DNA of 64,000 nucleotides from Candidatus Acidiferrales bacterium (lineage in GTDB: Bacteria > Acidobacteriota > Terriglobia > Acidiferrales > UBA7541): the NCBI GenBank assembly GCA_035934015.1, contig DASYYH010000023.1, forward strand, positions 124,001-188,000, given 5' to 3'. Shown here piece by piece: positions 37,275 to 45,055 of this stretch. The notes beneath the pieces were generated by a model, which was given only the letters and a program-made list of their open reading frames with translations, was not told the DNA's origin and made no database searches. Each line of letters begins with the position of its first letter. Within the stretch, counting starts at the first letter, position 1. The position numbers and the translations under genes are program-made.

Positions 37275-37511
37275 CTCCAAACTCTTTTGGACCTCCGGTT
37301 TAAGTGGTTGAAATGCACCACCTTCGCGTGAAATCAACCGTTTTCGCTCGCCTCAATCGGAATGCGCCGTTTCCGTTGCCGCCCTTAAATAACATAAAAA
37401 TAAACAGATAGCTGTATTCTGCGGGAGACATCCAGTTTGGCTAATGCCATGCTCTCATATGAGTGGCAGCAGAGAAGTTCCGTCCGGGAGATCCCGGCGC
37501 GAGGTGCGCTC

Positions 37512-39866
37512 ATGATCATCGAGAAAATGCGGGACGCAACGAAAAACGGGATTCTTGTGATAGCAGTTGCCGCCCTGTTCGCGTTTGCCGGCGGCGTTAC
37601 AGTAGTTTTGGCGCAAGACCAGAGCAATCCTCCGGCGCAGGACAGCATGCAGCAGAATCCGCCGGACCAGTCCGCTGCCGGTGCGGACCAGAATTCTTCG
37701 CAAACGCCGCCCGCGGTCGGCCACATCAGCATGGTTCAAGGCAGCGCCTCGATTCAGCGCGGCGACTCTGGCGACTGGATCGCTGCCGCAGTCAACACCC
37801 CGATCGAAGCCGGTGATCGCGTTTCCACAGGTGACGGCTCCCGCGTGGAAGTTCAGTTGGACTACGCCGACGTTATCCGCCTCGACGAAAACTCCACGAT
37901 AAAGATCACGAATCTAACCAATTCCCAGATTCAGGTTCAAGTCGGTCAGGGTCTCGCCAGCTACGATGTCTTCGGCAACGGTCAGGCCGACTCGGAAATC
38001 GATACGCCCAACGCCGCACTGCATCCGCTTCGCCAGGGCGAATATCGCATCGAGGTCAATAGCGATTCTGAATCGCAGATGACCGTCCGTGATGGCCAGG
38101 CCGAAATTTCTGAGCCGCAGGGCAGCACACGTGTCGATGCCGGCCAACTCATCACCATTCAAGGCACGGACAGTCCGCAGTATCAGGTCGTCGACGCTCC
38201 CGCTGCCGATAGCTTCGACAAGTGGAACCTCGACCGCGATCAGCAGATTCAGAACGCCAGCAGTTGGCAGCATAGCGACCGCTATTACGCTGGCGCGCAG
38301 GATCTCGACCAGTATGGTCATTGGGAAGACGTTCCCGACTACGGTCAGGTCTGGGTCCCTGCTGAAAATTCAGACTGGGCGCCTTACCGCGACGGAACCT
38401 GGCAATGGGAACCTTACTACGGTTGGACTTGGGTTTCTTATGAGCCGTGGGGTTGGGCTCCTTATCACTATGGCCGCTGGTTCGTCTATGGCGGTGATTG
38501 GGTTTGGTGGCCGGGGCCAATCGGAGCCTATGGTGGCTGGGGCTACGATCCTGTTTGGGCGCCGGCCTATGTTTCCTTCTTTGGCTGGGGCGGTGGTTTT
38601 GGCTTCGGCGTCGGCTTCGGCAGTTATGGCTGGCTCCCCTGCGGTCCGGGTGATTTCTACCGTCCGTGGTGGGGCTATGGCGGCACTCGTTTCGGCTATG
38701 TCGGTTTCCGTGACAACGGCTGGGGCCGCGGCGTAGGGGATCGTGACTACGGTCGTGGCTGGGGTCCTCTGTATCATGGCCGAAACGGATTCTCGAACAT
38801 CGGACGCTTCAACAACGATGCGCGCGTTCGCTCCGGCTTCTCATCCATGTCGAGAGATCAGTTTGGGCGTGGCCGCGTGTCAATGAATCAGCATGGCATC
38901 AGCGCCGCGCAGTTTCATCGCGCCAGCATGATGACGGGCCGTCTGCCGGTCGCGCCTTCGCGGCAGAGCTTTGGTCGCGCGGAAAGCCACGTCTCTCCGT
39001 CAATCGCACGGACCGCGAACTTCAACAATCAGCATTTCTTCTCGCGGCGCTCGTCCAATTCGCAAGCCGGCCAAGCGCAGCGCACCATCTCGAATTCTCG
39101 CGGACAGATTGGCGCAGCGAACAGTTCCCGCTTTTCCCCGCCCGCTCGCCAGCAGTCGTTGGGCGATTTGGGCAATTCACGCTCGTCCTCGAACAGTGGG
39201 TCGCGCTCTGGCTGGCAAAGCTTCAGCCATAACGGAACATCCTCACCGCAGAACCGCGGCTCATTCCAAGGGCAGCCTCCGGCGCGGCAGAATGGTTTTT
39301 CGCAGTCCGGTCGCTCATCGAACTCGCAGCCTGATGCTTGGCACCGCTTCACTCCGCCGAGCAACGCGAATCGCCAGCCGGCAGCGAATGGTCGTGGTAC
39401 GCAAGGCCAGTTTCGCGGTTCGCAAGGGCAGCCTCAGCCGCGCCAGAACAACAATGGCTGGCACCAGTTCACGCAGCCGTCGTCTCGGCCATCCCCGCGG
39501 CCCAGCGGCCCATCGGGCCGTCCCGCCCCTAGCTATGGCTACCGCAATTTTTCGCGCTCCTCCGGCGGGAACAACTCCTATCGTCCGCGCCTGGATATGA
39601 CCCAGCCCATTGCGCGCCGCCCGTCGGGTAACAGCTCCTATGGCCGTCCAAATGGGGGTTATTACGGCAGGCCGAGCAATAATAACTACCGGCAGAGCGC
39701 TCCTCGATCCTATAGCCAGCCGAGGGGCGGCTTTTCCTCGCGTTCTTTCGGCGGCGGTTCCTTCAGCAGGCCGAGCGGAGGGAGCGGCTACCACGGGGGC
39801 GGAGGAGGAGGCCATGCCAGCGCGCCCCGTGGCGGTGGCTCGCGTGGCGGCGGTCGTCCTCGCTAG
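37512..39866 (+). CDS. Secreted FecR-domain/DUF6600 protein with low-complexity tail
   Basis: 784 residues from the ATG at 37512 (GAGGTG upstream). A signal or anchor segment (about 12-33) is followed by a FecR-like domain (about 65-225, IEAGDRVSTGDGSRVEVQLD, SEIDTPNAALHPLRQGEYRI). Then comes a Trp/Tyr/Gly-rich domain (about 255-400) with WVPAENSDWAPYRDG, WQWEPYYGWTWVSYEP and WGWAPYHYGRW, typical of DUF6600. The last about 370 residues are Ser/Gly/Arg/Asn/Gln-rich and probably disordered, ending in Gly-Gly-His-Arg repeats. The role is unknown; FecR-like domains elsewhere bind peptidoglycan or act in signal transfer. Its upstream palindromes match those of the TetR gene at 12835. Confidence 0.85.
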   Translation: MIIEKMRDATKNGILVIAVAALFAFAGGVTVVLAQDQSNPPAQDSMQQNPPDQSAAGADQNSSQTPPAVGHISMVQGSASIQRGDSGDWIAAAVNTPIEAGDRVSTGDGSRVEVQLDYADVIRLDENSTIKITNLTNSQIQVQVGQGLASYDVFGNGQADSEIDTPNAALHPLRQGEYRIEVNSDSESQMTVRDGQAEISEPQGSTRVDAGQLITIQGTDSPQYQVVDAPAADSFDKWNLDRDQQIQNASSWQHSDRYYAGAQDLDQYGHWEDVPDYGQVWVPAENSDWAPYRDGTWQWEPYYGWTWVSYEPWGWAPYHYGRWFVYGGDWVWWPGPIGAYGGWGYDPVWAPAYVSFFGWGGGFGFGVGFGSYGWLPCGPGDFYRPWWGYGGTRFGYVGFRDNGWGRGVGDRDYGRGWGPLYHGRNGFSNIGRFNNDARVRSGFSSMSRDQFGRGRVSMNQHGISAAQFHRASMMTGRLPVAPSRQSFGRAESHVSPSIARTANFNNQHFFSRRSSNSQAGQAQRTISNSRGQIGAANSSRFSPPARQQSLGDLGNSRSSSNSGSRSGWQSFSHNGTSSPQNRGSFQGQPPARQNGFSQSGRSSNSQPDAWHRFTPPSNANRQPAANGRGTQGQFRGSQGQPQPRQNNNGWHQFTQPSSRPSPRPSGPSGRPAPSYGYRNFSRSSGGNNSYRPRLDMTQPIARRPSGNSSYGRPNGGYYGRPSNNNYRQSAPRSYSQPRGGFSSRSFGGGSFSRPSGGSGYHGGGGGGHASAPRGGGSRGGGRPR

Positions 39867-40017: not shown

Positions 40018-41595
40018 CTAGGGGAGTCTCCCCGCAGACCTGAATTTTAGCCACCCTAGATACGCATCCACTTCTCGGATTCGAAACAGCTTCAGAAGCG
40101 GGATCAAAATAACCACCCCTGCCGCCGTCGCAACAATCAGGATCTCAAACGACCCCAGCATCCTCTGCCACGCAATCACGTGCCTCAGCCATTTCGCCAG
40201 CTCATAAATCGCTCCAGCGGTCACCGCGGACGCCACGGTCACTTTGCCCAAAAATAGCATCAGGTCTCCCACTTCGTGGTCCCTTGTCCGCCGGATGAGC
40301 AACACAAAGAGAAGAATTGTCAGCAGCGAAATTCCGATGGAACTCGCCAGCGCCAGGCCCAGATGCTGCGCCCGCCGCACCAGCCACCAGTAGATGGGCA
40401 AATCGAGAAAAGTCATCGCCGTTCCCACAATCGCCGGAGTCCATGTGTCGCGCGTCGCATAAAATCCTCGCGCCAGCAGGTTCTGTGCACCCCACGCGAA
40501 CATTCCCAGCGAGAAGAGAGCCAGTGTCGAAGCCGTAGCCTGCAGATCAAACGCCTTCAGCCTTGTGTGCGAGAAAACTACGTGTACCACGTACGGGCTC
40601 TGCGCAACCGTGAGCGCCGAAATCGGAATCAGCAGCAGTATCAATCCCTTTAGAGTGTCGTTCAGCACGCGATTCAGCTCCGCAAATTTTCCTTCCGAGT
40701 ACAACTGCGCCAGCACAGGAAACGATGCCACGCCGATTGCCTGTCCCACCACGCCCAGCGGCACGCGCATCAGTGTCTTCGCGTAGGTCAGCCAGGTGAT
40801 CGATGCGGGCACGAGATACGACCCGAACCAGCGGATGATCCAGTCATCCGTGAAGGAGAGTGAAAGCGCCAGCATGATCGGCACGGCCAGCTTGATGAAT
40901 AGTCTGAAGCCGGGATGCCGCAAATCGAGCGCAAACGAAAATTTCGCTCCCACCTGATGCGCGCCATAAATTTGCAGCAGAAAATTCCCCAGCAGCGCTC
41001 CCGCCAGCACGCCAACAGAAAACCCCCTGATTCCGATCCTCGAAGCAAGAAACACACCGCCGAGAATAATCATCAGGTTGTAGACCAGCGGCGCAAGCGA
41101 AGGCACAACGAATCGCCCCTTCGCGTATTGCACCGCGCTCAAGATTCCGCCCTGATAAAAGCAGAACTGCGCCGGCAACATCAGCCGCGTCAAATAAATC
41201 ACGCGCTGCTTTTCCACCGGCCCGAATCCTGGCGCGATCACGGCCACCAGTTGCGGGGCGAAGACCTCCGCCACGCACACGAGCGCGATCACCAGGAGTC
41301 CCATGAACGTCATCACCGTGGAAAATACCCGCCAGCCTTCTTCTTCCTGTCCCTCCGCAACGAATTTCGCGAATACGGGAATGAACGTGATGCTCAGCGA
41401 GCCCGCCGCGACCAGATAATTCAGAAAGTCCGGCAGCGTGAATGCCGCGTAATATGAATCTGTGATTGCGTTCGAACCGATTTGGTGCGCCACCGTCCAT
41501 TCGCGCACAAATCCGAGCAAGCGGCTCAGCAGCACGCTCGCCATCACGATGCCCGTGGATTGGATGATCTTGCGGTTCAGGCCCGGAGTCGTCAC
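40018..41595 (-). CDS. murJ: Lipid II flippase MurJ
   Basis: 525 residues with about 14 hydrophobic segments, the expected topology for the MOP-superfamily flippase that moves lipid II across the inner membrane for peptidoglycan synthesis. Recognisable stretches are SRLLGFVREWTVAHQIG, AFTLPDFLNYLVAAGSLSITFIPVF split over helices 1-2, LPAQFCFYQGGILSAVQYAKGRF, and RVPLGVVGQAIGVASFPVLAQ. Its orientation is opposite to the genes on both sides, so it is a single-gene transcript. Confidence 0.94.
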   Translation of the reverse strand: MTTPGLNRKIIQSTGIVMASVLLSRLLGFVREWTVAHQIGSNAITDSYYAAFTLPDFLNYLVAAGSLSITFIPVFAKFVAEGQEEEGWRVFSTVMTFMGLLVIALVCVAEVFAPQLVAVIAPGFGPVEKQRVIYLTRLMLPAQFCFYQGGILSAVQYAKGRFVVPSLAPLVYNLMIILGGVFLASRIGIRGFSVGVLAGALLGNFLLQIYGAHQVGAKFSFALDLRHPGFRLFIKLAVPIMLALSLSFTDDWIIRWFGSYLVPASITWLTYAKTLMRVPLGVVGQAIGVASFPVLAQLYSEGKFAELNRVLNDTLKGLILLLIPISALTVAQSPYVVHVVFSHTRLKAFDLQATASTLALFSLGMFAWGAQNLLARGFYATRDTWTPAIVGTAMTFLDLPIYWWLVRRAQHLGLALASSIGISLLTILLFVLLIRRTRDHEVGDLMLFLGKVTVASAVTAGAIYELAKWLRHVIAWQRMLGSFEILIVATAAGVVILIPLLKLFRIREVDAYLGWLKFRSAGRLP

Positions 41596-42160
41596 GCAAG
41601 AAATAGTACACGGGTTGCACGTTCCAGCCTCGCGTCGCTTTCCGGTCGCTTGCTGCTTTTCTTACTAGCCCATTTCGCGTCGCGCAATGCGTGCCTCGGC
41701 CGATCCTCGCGATTCAAAATCCACAACCACTACACCTTGCATTTGGCCTGGCGGCCGCGCATCATTTTTCTGTGCGCGCCGCGCTTTTTTGCGGGCCGTG
41801 CAGCGATGTCCGCGGACGTCGCAACGAAGCTTAGGGGGCAATTTTGCAGGGAGCGATGCGAAACAGGAGCCGTGGTTCGCAGTCGATGACTTCACAGCGG
41901 ACGCCAGAGCGAGGAAGCGGTCTTTCCGCTGCTTCAAAATCGTGCTTAGTCGGTGGCGAGCCTCAAGGAACAGCCGGCACAGTGCCTTGCATCTCCTCTA
42001 GGTCCCTCCGTTCTAATCGCCACACCGCGGAATTAGAAATGTCCGTAACTTACACAAAACAAAGGCTCGCCAATTTTCTAATCGCCACATTTTGCGGCTT
42101 TTTACGGATTGCCGACTTTCTCCTTTTCAGTCAATTTCCAGCTGTGGGAGTTGCAATTTC
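41596..42160. other. 565-bp intergenic region, no gene recognised
   Basis: The gap separates the divergent murJ and the cytochrome c/copper protein gene. Overlapping frames of 60-135 codons on both strands lack ribosome sites and recognisable motifs. The last 150 bp are AT-richer and carry a repeated TTCTAATCGCCACA element, listed separately, and should contain the promoter of the gene at 42161. Confidence 0.4.
42011..42089. repeat. 14-bp direct repeat with an inverted partner in a gene leader
   Basis: TTCTAATCGCCACA occurs at 42011-42024 and again at 42076-42089, 65 bp apart. The first copy also forms an inverted repeat, TTCTAAT (42011-42017) with ATTAGAA (42032-42038). Both lie 70-150 bp upstream of the start codon of the cytochrome c/copper protein gene, a suitable place for activator sites. 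Confidence 0.4.
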
Positions 42161-43513
42161 ATGAACGGCATTCCCCCACCCCCGTTTCACCGCCTCTCGC
42201 GCCTCACCGTCGCGTCCGTCGCGGCGATTTCTTTCTTTGGATTTTTCTGTGCCGCAATTCCGCGCCAGAAAAATCCCCTTCCCTCCACCTCGCCCACTTT
42301 TTATCGCGACGTCCTCCCCATCCTCCAGCAGCACTGCCAGGTCTGCCATCGTCCCGAAGAAATCGCACCGATGGCACTTGAGACCTATGAGCAAACCAAG
42401 CGCTACGCGCGGCAAATCAAAGCGAAGGTCACGCGTCGCGTCATGCCGCCGTGGTTTGCCGACCCATGCTGCGGGCATTTCTCAGACGATCCGTCGCTTT
42501 CTCCGCAGCAAATTGCGACGCTCGCTGCGTGGGTCGATCGCGGCGCACCTGTCGGAGATCCTCGCGACGCGCCTCCGCCGCGAAAGTGGGCGAGCGGCTG
42601 GGTCATTCCTCAGCCCGACAATGTCGTGAAAATGCCCGCGCCCATCTCCATCCCTGCGAGCGGCGACGTCGAATACACATACGAAATCGTGCCCACTCAT
42701 TTCACGCGTGACGAATGGGTGCAGATGTCTGAAATTCGCCCGTCATCACGCGCGAATGTTCACCACGCGGTCGTCTATGTCCGTCCGCCAGGCTCGAAAT
42801 GGCTGCGGTACGCGCCCATCGGTGTTCCGTTCACCGCGTCTACATTAAAAGACGCGCAGGATCGCCGCGATGCCGAATGGACCGACAGCGATATTCTTCT
42901 CGTCTACGCGCCCGGAAGTTCCCCCGACGAATGGCCCGCGGGCATGGCGAAATTCGTCCCCGCCGGATCCGATCTCGTTTTTCAAATGCATTACATCACC
43001 AAGGGCCATCGCGTCGAAGATCAAACCAGCATTGGCTTGATTTTTGCCAAACAGCCGCCTAAGCAGCGCGTGCTGACTCTGCAGCTCACCAACGACAGCT
43101 TCGTCATTCCGCCGGGCGTTCCCGACTTTCGCGTCGAAGTTCACGGCACTCTGCCGAATGACTGCACGCTTCTCAGTTTTTTCCCGCACATGCACCTGCG
43201 CGGCAAAAAATTCGAATACAACATCATTCGCTCCGACGGCTCCATCGAGCCGCTCCTGCGCGTGAACTACAATTTTTACTGGCAATTGAGCTATCGGCTG
43301 GCGCAGCCGTTGTTTCTCAAGGCGGGAACGGAACTTCAGGCTGTCGGCTGGTACGATAATTCCAAGCAAAATCCGCACAATCCTGATCCAACCGTCGCCG
43401 TGCGCTGGGGCGACCAGACCTACGATGAAATGATGGTGGGGTTTTTCGACGTCGCTGTGCCGGCGAACATCGACAAATGGCAATTTTTCATTCGCCACAG
43501 CGGGCGCAAGTGA
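42161..43513 (+). CDS. Cytochrome c / PHM-type copper monooxygenase fusion protein
   Basis: 450 residues from the ATG at 42161 (GGGAG upstream; the longer frame from 42092 is not supported). A signal anchor lies at about 14-33. A short cytochrome c domain has heme motif CQVCH (59-63) and a probable axial Met in MPPW (95-98). Residues about 165-445 resemble the copper type II ascorbate-dependent monooxygenase fold (PHM/DBH). All six expected copper ligands can be placed: His201-His202 and His277 (QMHY) for one site, and His343, His345 (HMH) and Met424 or Met425 (DEMM) for the other. A periplasmic redox enzyme hydroxylating an unknown substrate is inferred; it could also be a copper-binding remnant. 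Confidence 0.8.
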   Translation: MNGIPPPPFHRLSRLTVASVAAISFFGFFCAAIPRQKNPLPSTSPTFYRDVLPILQQHCQVCHRPEEIAPMALETYEQTKRYARQIKAKVTRRVMPPWFADPCCGHFSDDPSLSPQQIATLAAWVDRGAPVGDPRDAPPPRKWASGWVIPQPDNVVKMPAPISIPASGDVEYTYEIVPTHFTRDEWVQMSEIRPSSRANVHHAVVYVRPPGSKWLRYAPIGVPFTASTLKDAQDRRDAEWTDSDILLVYAPGSSPDEWPAGMAKFVPAGSDLVFQMHYITKGHRVEDQTSIGLIFAKQPPKQRVLTLQLTNDSFVIPPGVPDFRVEVHGTLPNDCTLLSFFPHMHLRGKKFEYNIIRSDGSIEPLLRVNYNFYWQLSYRLAQPLFLKAGTELQAVGWYDNSKQNPHNPDPTVAVRWGDQTYDEMMVGFFDVAVPANIDKWQFFIRHSGRK

Positions 43514-43557
43514 AAATCCGACGGCTCCGATTCAGTCCGCGCGGCGCAAGCGCAACG

Positions 43558-43992
43558 CTAAGCCCGCAGGTAATCTGCCTTCCACGTCTTGATCATCTTC
43601 TTGATGGATTTCCGGTCTTTCACTTTTTCGTCGAGCACCCGCCGTGCAAGGTCCGGCAGTTCCGCATCGCTGGCGAACCGCAGGCCGATCAACTGTTCGA
43701 CAGTGAACTCCGGAACGCGCGGTTTCAGATCCGCCGGAAGGATCTTTTCCATCCGCAGGCGCACCTCCAAACGGATCACGCGATCCTGCACCGTCAGCGC
43801 AAACAGCCTGGCATAGAGCGCCACGAGGATAAGTGCGATTGCGAGAAGCACTCCCACAACCGCCCCGAACGAAAACCATGTATGAACCAGCTCATAGATC
43901 GACCAGCCCAGGTTCAAAAGAAGAATCGGCAATGCAACCAAGTGAAACGCCGGAACAACTCGCGCGTGATTCGCAAAATTCTGCTCGCTCAT
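43558..43992 (-). CDS. DUF6526 family membrane protein
   Basis: 144 residues with two hydrophobic segments (about residues 15-36 and 42-64) and a basic, soluble C-terminal half (VIRLEVRLRMEKILP, LIGLRFASDAELPDLARRVL, DRKSIKKMIKTWKADYLRA). This matches the small DUF6526 family, common in Acidobacteriota and Bacteroidota and of unknown function. It is convergent with the copper protein gene and stands alone on the minus strand, 169 bp from the esterase gene upstream; that gap holds nothing I recognise. Confidence 0.75.
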   Translation of the reverse strand: MSEQNFANHARVVPAFHLVALPILLLNLGWSIYELVHTWFSFGAVVGVLLAIALILVALYARLFALTVQDRVIRLEVRLRMEKILPADLKPRVPEFTVEQLIGLRFASDAELPDLARRVLDEKVKDRKSIKKMIKTWKADYLRA

Positions 43993-44161
43993 TATATGAC
44001 CTCAATTGATAAGATTTGGCCCGCTCGTTCTTTGGACGTCCGAATTCGCTTTCCGTCTCGTGCCTCTCTGCAGTTTCTGTGTTTCGAAATGTTTTGCTTG
44101 TCCCCAGACTGTTGGATGTCGGCTCGTCCTTTGCGATGCAGGCGGCAGCCAGCGCCATCTC

Positions 44162-45055
44162 TCATTTCGAAGGTCCCAAGCCGAACGCACGCGAGTCGAA
44201 TTGCAGTGCCGCCGGCAAATGCGCGGCAAAATACTGCCAGTCGTGGCCGCCGGGATACAAGTGAAATTCATGCGGGACGCCGCGCGATTTCAGGATTTCA
44301 TCAAGAGCTCGCGCGCCGGCTTCGAATCCGTAATCGTCTTCCGTGCCGCAATCGAAATAGATTTTCAGGCCGGCAAGGTTGGCCGTCCGCGCCAATTGCA
44401 AGGGATTATTGCGCCGCCAGTAGGCGGGGTCGAATGGCGTTCCGAAGGGCGAAAGCGCGCGCAAAAATGCCGGCGGACTTTGCGCCGAAAATTTCACATC
44501 GGGCAATTTTTCGAGAAGCGCCGCGCTATTGGTGCTCACCGACGCAAACCATTCCGGATGCGCAAACGCAAGATGCAGCGCGCCATATCCGCCCATGGAA
44601 ATTCCGTCGATGCCGCGAGATCGCCGGCCGCGCCGGATCCGGTAGGTGCGTTCGATGAATGGGAGAAACTCATGCAAGAAAAAATCCTCGTAGCGAACGC
44701 GGCCGTCGCGCGAGTTGATGTAAAAGCTCGTGTCACCCGCAGGCGCGACGATGAGAAATTCGCCGAGTTGATGCCCTTCCCACAGATCTTCAATCAGATT
44801 CCACGCCCCGGAGCTGACGAGCATTTGCTCGTTTTCGCCGAGGCCGTGGAGAAAATAGAGAACAGCGAATCGCCGCGTTTTTTCGGTGTCGTAGCTCGGC
44901 GGGAGAATCGCGCAATAGCGCACGCTGCGGCGCAGAGTCGCGCTGCGCATGGAATTGCATTCGATGCGGCCGAGGGCGGCGCGGGCCGGACGAGCCGCCA
45001 TGAAAAATAGAACGAAGATGGACGCAAGAATCGAAAGTCGCAGCCGGTTATTCAT
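44162..45055 (-). CDS. Secreted esterase D/antigen 85-like alpha/beta hydrolase
   Basis: 297 residues from the ATG at 45053-45055, which overlaps the end of the upstream permease gene by 8 bp; a start at 45091 would overlap more. The signal peptide spans about 1-27. The PF00756 esterase fold is indicated by LYFLHGLGENE, nucleophile Ser in GISMGGYGALH, the acid in DCGTEDDYGFE and the base His in YPGGHDW. Family members include S-formylglutathione hydrolase, ferulic acid esterase and mycolyltransferase, so the substrate is open. Overlap with a MacB-type ABC pair suggests that transport and hydrolysis are linked. Confidence 0.88.
   Translation of the reverse strand: MNNRLRLSILASIFVLFFMAARPARAALGRIECNSMRSATLRRSVRYCAILPPSYDTEKTRRFAVLYFLHGLGENEQMLVSSGAWNLIEDLWEGHQLGEFLIVAPAGDTSFYINSRDGRVRYEDFFLHEFLPFIERTYRIRRGRRSRGIDGISMGGYGALHLAFAHPEWFASVSTNSAALLEKLPDVKFSAQSPPAFLRALSPFGTPFDPAYWRRNNPLQLARTANLAGLKIYFDCGTEDDYGFEAGARALDEILKSRGVPHEFHLYPGGHDWQYFAAHLPAALQFDSRAFGLGPSK

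Follow-up and report, generated by a model that had tools for sequence, protein, structure and literature searches.

A heme c motif joined to a predicted PHM-like dicopper core in a large family of acidobacterial proteins

Two-copper oxygenases of the PHM/DBH type are the kind used by animals for hormone making. As described for DBH in PMC4846438, each turnover takes two electrons, which come from ascorbate, CuH is the electron-transfer site and the copper ligands are His262/263/333, His412/414 and Met487. Electron entry into PHM and DBH, and the passage of the second electron over the about 11 Å between the coppers, have long been studied in these ascorbate-reliant animal enzymes. Other copper monooxygenases, the LPMOs, have a mononuclear copper held in a histidine brace. 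Here the feeding of a copper monooxygenase by protein-bound heme has precedent in the cytochrome donors cellobiose dehydrogenase and Cbp2D/CjX183, and the c-type domain CjX183 is described as reducing and activating bacterial LPMOs with less H2O2 than with ascorbate (PMC8981238).

The protein considered here, of 450 residues, is encoded in the window, by which we mean the whole 64,000-nucleotide stretch analysed, from a Candidatus Acidiferrales bacterium (Table 1). The GC content by codon position (0.61/0.45/0.69) and a dN/dS of about 0.1 against the 87% identical relative L045 (dN 0.071, dS 0.689, Nei-Gojobori) establish that the gene is real and under purifying selection. It is the only copy in its genome, has an alternative in-frame TTG start at 42092, upstream of the ATG, and stands alone between murJ on one side and a DUF6526 gene on the other, both on the opposite strand. 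An operon reading was rejected, since of 29 loci only L031 and L045 share the genes that lie downstream (DUF6526, esterase, MacB, ABC) and only L045 has the MurJ neighbour. Conserved order is thus limited to the closest relatives, and no donor or substrate gene in these loci points to the reaction. There was no Rfam family at 41500-44200, no match in an NCBIfam scan of the protein and no match to the family in the plasmid collection searched. Elsewhere in the window, the product of 37437-39866 begins with a FecR-like part (by eye) and ends in a very long tail rich in Gly, Ser, Asn and Gln; it adjoins a sigma-54-type response regulator (by eye).

Table 1. Features of the heme-PHM gene (positions in the window) and of the copper-poor sister genes (genome:contig:positions)
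Feature	Location	Strand	Basis or remark
Whole gene, 450 aa	42161..43513	+	ORF list; stop included; ATG at 42161, TGA ends at 43513
Hydrophobic N-terminus, residues 1-41, probable Sec signal or anchor	42161..42283	+	By eye; pLDDT <50
Helical c-type heme domain (predicted), residues 42-150	42284..42610	+	AlphaFold2 model; A2 model pLDDT 85.4
CQVCH heme attachment, C59 C62 H63	42335..42349	+	Invariant 42/42
Met95 (MPPW), candidate distal heme ligand	42443..42445	+	Invariant 42/42; axial role inferred
PHM-like two-domain copper core (predicted), residues 150-450	42608..43510	+	VIA Z 24.6 vs 5wja_D
His201-His202, predicted CuH ligands	42761..42766	+	42/42; in register with DBH VHH
His277, predicted third CuH ligand (QMHY)	42989..42991	+	42/42; in register with HY of DBH and PHM
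His343-Met-His345, predicted CuM ligands (HMHLRG)	43187..43195	+	H343 and H345 42/42; in register with DBH/PHM HTH
Met424, predicted CuM thioether ligand (DEM)	43430..43432	+	42/42 in A1; in register with DBH EEM
Copper-poor sister (L174, L180)	G360:C135:28008-29081		Same strand as complete copy just upstream
Copper-poor sister (L176, L181)	G402:C7:130776-131840		Same strand as complete copy just upstream
Copper-poor sister (L173, L179)	G158:C5:261266-262429		Same strand as complete copy just upstream
Copper-poor sister (L178)	G113:C1:5429797-5430093		Same strand as complete copy just upstream
Copper-poor sister (L182)	G379:C2:322876-323973		Same strand as complete copy just upstream
Copper-poor sister (L183)	G391:C11:94578-95654		Same strand as complete copy just upstream

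Residues 150-450 are predicted to form a PHM/DBH-type two-domain dicopper core, in a model built without metals. A PDB search with the single sequence returned nothing and a profile was needed. The profile was made from A1, an alignment of 42 rows including the protein itself, which was gathered partly with patterns containing the ligands and is therefore biased to intact members. A1 excludes eight of 46 loci, four of them truncated or frame-split (L048, L050, L058, L068) and four for size only (L033, L042, L045, L047); tandem paralogues were added from L052 (two) and L073 (one). With this profile human DBH was matched at E 9e-7 and PHM at E 0.0035, the HH, H, HxH and M elements lying in register with DBH. 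AlphaFold2 on A1 gave a model with pLDDT 87.2 and pTM 0.83, in which residues 1-41 are the only long stretch below 50. When this model was submitted to Foldseek, PHM came top (E 5.9e-16) and ranks 1-31 were all PHM or DBH chains. VIA-align placed model residues 150-450 on PHM residues 54-339 of 5wja_D (rmsd 2.6 Å, 271 aligned, Z as in Table 1); Z was 20.0 to 24.6 across the PHM rows (PHM about 54-341) and 23.7 for DBH, and the next fold, PNGase F-like, followed at about 9. The superposition on PHM that had been suggested as a check thus agrees in both fold and ligand order. In Pfam, PF03712 (Cu2_monoox_C) matches the protein at 23.3 bits, with a cut-off of 23, and 39 of the 42 aligned relatives (E<=0.1), while PF01082 (the N-terminal Cu2_monooxygen) has no match on the protein and matches two of the 42 at E<=0.1.

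The likeness to PHM (PDB 1phm, 5wja, 8dsl) lies in the two-domain copper core, the six equivalent ligands and the QxHY at the third CuH histidine, whose Gln (Q275) is present in 35/42, whereas identity is only about 17%, a heme c is fused here and Arg240, Asn316 and Tyr318 are not conserved. DBH (PDB 4zel) is the best PDB profile match and has the same ligand pattern, but has a DOMON beta-sandwich at its own N-terminus and a dimerisation domain at its C-terminus, in contrast to the helical heme c N-terminus found here. No DOMON beta-sandwich was found in the 450-residue protein, residues 42-126 being modelled as helices.

The six predicted copper ligands are H201, H202 and H277 for CuH and H343, H345 and M424 for CuM. 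The preliminary description had named all of these positions but left the methionine as 424 or 425. Since residue 425 varies (Met in 29/42) and residue 424 is Met in all 42, we assign the CuM methionine to 424; Thr replaces it in one relative outside A1, L184. Together with the heme ligands this makes ten metal ligands identical in 42/42 (C59, C62, H63, M95, H201, H202, H277, H343, H345 and M424), and P96, W124, G132, G252, I316, G348, Y378, G389, N400, N404 and G417 are likewise invariant.

Export of the protein is probable, judging from its hydrophobic N-terminus (by eye) and the low-confidence segment 1-41. The sequence that follows has a CxxCH and a candidate distal axial ligand, the two marks of a c-type cytochrome (C59, C62, H63 and M95; 42/42), and this CxxCH is the only one in the window among open frames of >=150 codons on either strand. 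The joining of a heme motif to a PHM/DBH-like domain, as first noticed, is thus borne out, with the heme ligands invariant and the PHM fold given by the model. The modelled helices of the heme domain span residues 47-58, 76-80, 83-91 and 115-126. The Pfam cytochrome match in the protein is below threshold, and Cytochrome_CBB3 (weak) matches 30/42 relatives and Haem_bd 16/42 at E<=0.1. Searched alone, the heme-domain model, all-helical and built without heme, gave nothing at E<=0.001 in Foldseek and a best Z of 3.5 in VIA, where 5/15 rows were c-type cytochromes; this search excludes no cytochrome family. Three Cytochrom_C_asm (PF01578) matches above cut-off point to cytochrome-c maturation in the organism's own genome.

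The fusion is no oddity of one genome. Matches at E<=1e-10 occur in 84 of 151 genomes and a near-full-length copy with 61-100% identity in 41 of the 151 (own genome included in both counts), with 10-17 matches in some others. Phylum-wide, at least 69 of 297 genomes (own included) have a match, these counts being lower bounds as up to six candidates were scored per genome, and every row among the matches listed begins at profile position 2-10 and hence covers the heme domain. More than ten matches were present in three of the four Acidobacteriota genomes surveyed in full. The fusion-frequency survey suggested at the outset thus shows that a large family of paralogues in Acidobacteriota is normally built as the heme-PHM fusion. 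Among the named records that contain relatives are Candidatus Acidiferrales, Acidobacteriaceae, Bryobacteraceae and Vicinamibacteria, as well as Planctomycetota, Verrucomicrobiota, Rokuibacteriota and one betaproteobacterium. Several paralogues stand in tandem arrays at G158:C5:261266-274783 and G360:C135:22122-29081. Four relatives (L081, L083, L084, L085) have a long C-terminal extension with TPR-like repeats (by eye), and their CuM motif is HAHYLG instead of HMHLRG. No description of a heme c-PHM fusion was found among the titles and abstracts returned from open-licence PMC, which does not show that the fusion is unpublished, and such proteins have probably been annotated automatically. The protein is a poorly described variant of a known superfamily, whose fold and ligands are already known.

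We propose that the protein is an exported PHM/DBH-type dicopper monooxygenase with a covalent heme c in front that feeds electrons to CuH, a reading we regard as reasonably probable. After export, the cytochrome-c maturation system would attach heme to C59 and C62, with H63 and M95 as axial ligands, and copper would load at CuH and CuM. The heme would then be reduced one electron at a time by a respiratory or periplasmic donor and would in turn reduce CuH, while CuM would bind O2 and hydroxylate an organic substrate, with CuH giving the second electron as in PHM and DBH. Since DBH uses ascorbate, which to our knowledge bacteria generally do not make, and since the genome has cytochrome-c assembly genes and CjX183 provides a precedent, delivery from heme to CuH is judged the most likely role of the heme. 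This suggests that bacteria drive PHM-type chemistry from their own cytochromes and not from vitamin C. The preliminary description had offered the heme as a built-in donor replacing ascorbate; this fits the co-occurrence of the two domains, the assembly genes and the CjX183 precedent, which fall short of proof. Unlike the LPMO systems, which have another fold and a donor on a separate protein, the candidate donor and the dicopper core are here in one chain.

Since A1 contains the heme domain itself, further searches were started from Pfam models that lack it. At the PF03712 loci a CxxCH was found in the same open frame in 28/30, and the other two are interrupted genes with the heme motif present (30/30); at the PF01082 loci the heme motif was present in 7/7. 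Two apparent heme-less relatives were rejected, L119 because its frame is broken by an internal TAG (query position 163) and L108 because its heme motif sits in another frame. In L024/L119 (G141:C1:32093-33271) there is a single in-frame TAG just past the heme domain and both halves are otherwise intact, and a pseudogene, an error or a split gene is possible. Four genomes were surveyed in full: all first-look candidates were scored, missing stretches fetched and overlap duplicates removed (72 ORFs reduced to 48). In this census the heme set was kept in 48/48 genes and all ten ligands in 44/48. Of the four exceptions, one is cut down to the heme domain, and in the other three no more than one of the six copper ligands is retained in the alignment; copper ligands without heme occurred in none of the 48. 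In a further profile-selected set 24/35 ORFs were complete. The 11 others were two copper cores that run off the end of their locus, L184 with its Thr for Met424, and eight in which the heme set is kept and the copper set is not, including L182, which still aligns 3/6 copper ligands. In this family, then, the copper set depends on heme, whereas heme can stay where copper has gone, which is what one would predict of a heme that serves the copper site. The retention of heme in 48/48 genes bears on the possibility that the core is reduced by small molecules, ascorbate or others, and that the heme domain is there for docking, sensing or structure. Although PHM and DBH themselves use ascorbate (for DBH, PMC4846438), the strict keeping of CxxCH, H63 and M95 (42/42; 48/48 genes) suggests redox use, and we consider this explanation unlikely.

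In one type of paralogue the heme ligands are retained and most or all copper ligands are gone; in 6/6 cases such a gene directly follows a complete copy on the same strand (Table 1). The four census sisters form one clade (98/95 support, from 109 columns and with the bootstrap not settled), and two further cases, in G379 and G391, came from a search that used three of these as queries. In G360 the stop of the complete copy and the start of the sister are 77 bp apart. A second heme-keeping type without the copper set (L186, L188 and L191, in G399, G293 and G237) was seen in one genus, with no other family member in the fetched stretch; neither type was found in the organism's own genome. Because heme is retained in two groups of relatives whose copper ligands are mostly or wholly gone, the heme domain would be of use without this copper site too, and it is a guess that the downstream sister is a dedicated electron partner or shuttle. 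Such heme-only paralogues would also suit a reverse flow, in which a substrate or Cu+ would be oxidised at the copper core and the electrons would leave through the heme for the respiratory chain, making the protein a copper oxidase or dehydrogenase, and cytochrome c domains on periplasmic enzymes, such as the quinohemoproteins, do often accept electrons. However, PHM-fold dicopper enzymes with such ligands are known only as monooxygenases and both copper sites are fully kept (42/42), so that we find a reverse flow rather improbable. A non-catalytic copper carrier or electron shuttle, for which the lack of a substrate or operon partner at 29 loci and the existence of relatives lacking most copper ligands might speak, is very improbable given that the asymmetric 3His and 2His+Met sets, with Y378, N400, N404 and G417, are kept in 42/42 as expected of an active site.

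If the protein is a heme-fed dicopper monooxygenase, as we favour, its substrate probably differs from that of PHM. In PHM, Arg240, Asn316 and Tyr318 form a clamp for the peptide carboxylate. The Arg240 column (F341), taken from the PHM alignment, holds F17, Q8, M6, L3 and A3 besides W, H, S, N and E among the 42, and never Arg or Lys. The Asn316 column (V426) and the Tyr318 column (F428), both placed by offset from the ligand Met, hold V20, I17, F2, L2 and one gap, and F22, W9, Y8, L2 and one gap, respectively, so that Tyr is found in only eight. Since the clamp residues are not conserved, peptide amidation appears unlikely for this protein, and the peptidyl-glycine earlier proposed as a test substrate is a poor candidate.

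More broadly, and more tentatively, we suggest that the family may comprise self-sufficient, ascorbate-independent monooxygenases of the PHM type, in which electrons would run from the respiratory chain through a heme c to a dicopper site on the same chain, some lineages adding an adjacent heme-keeping sister without the full copper site as an electron partner; for this wider proposal as a whole we would put the chances at somewhat under even. If true, it would provide a natural one-chain heme-Cu-Cu relay in which electron entry could be measured by spectroscopy and electrochemistry, and it would suggest that soil bacteria have an uncharacterised repertoire of oxygenases.
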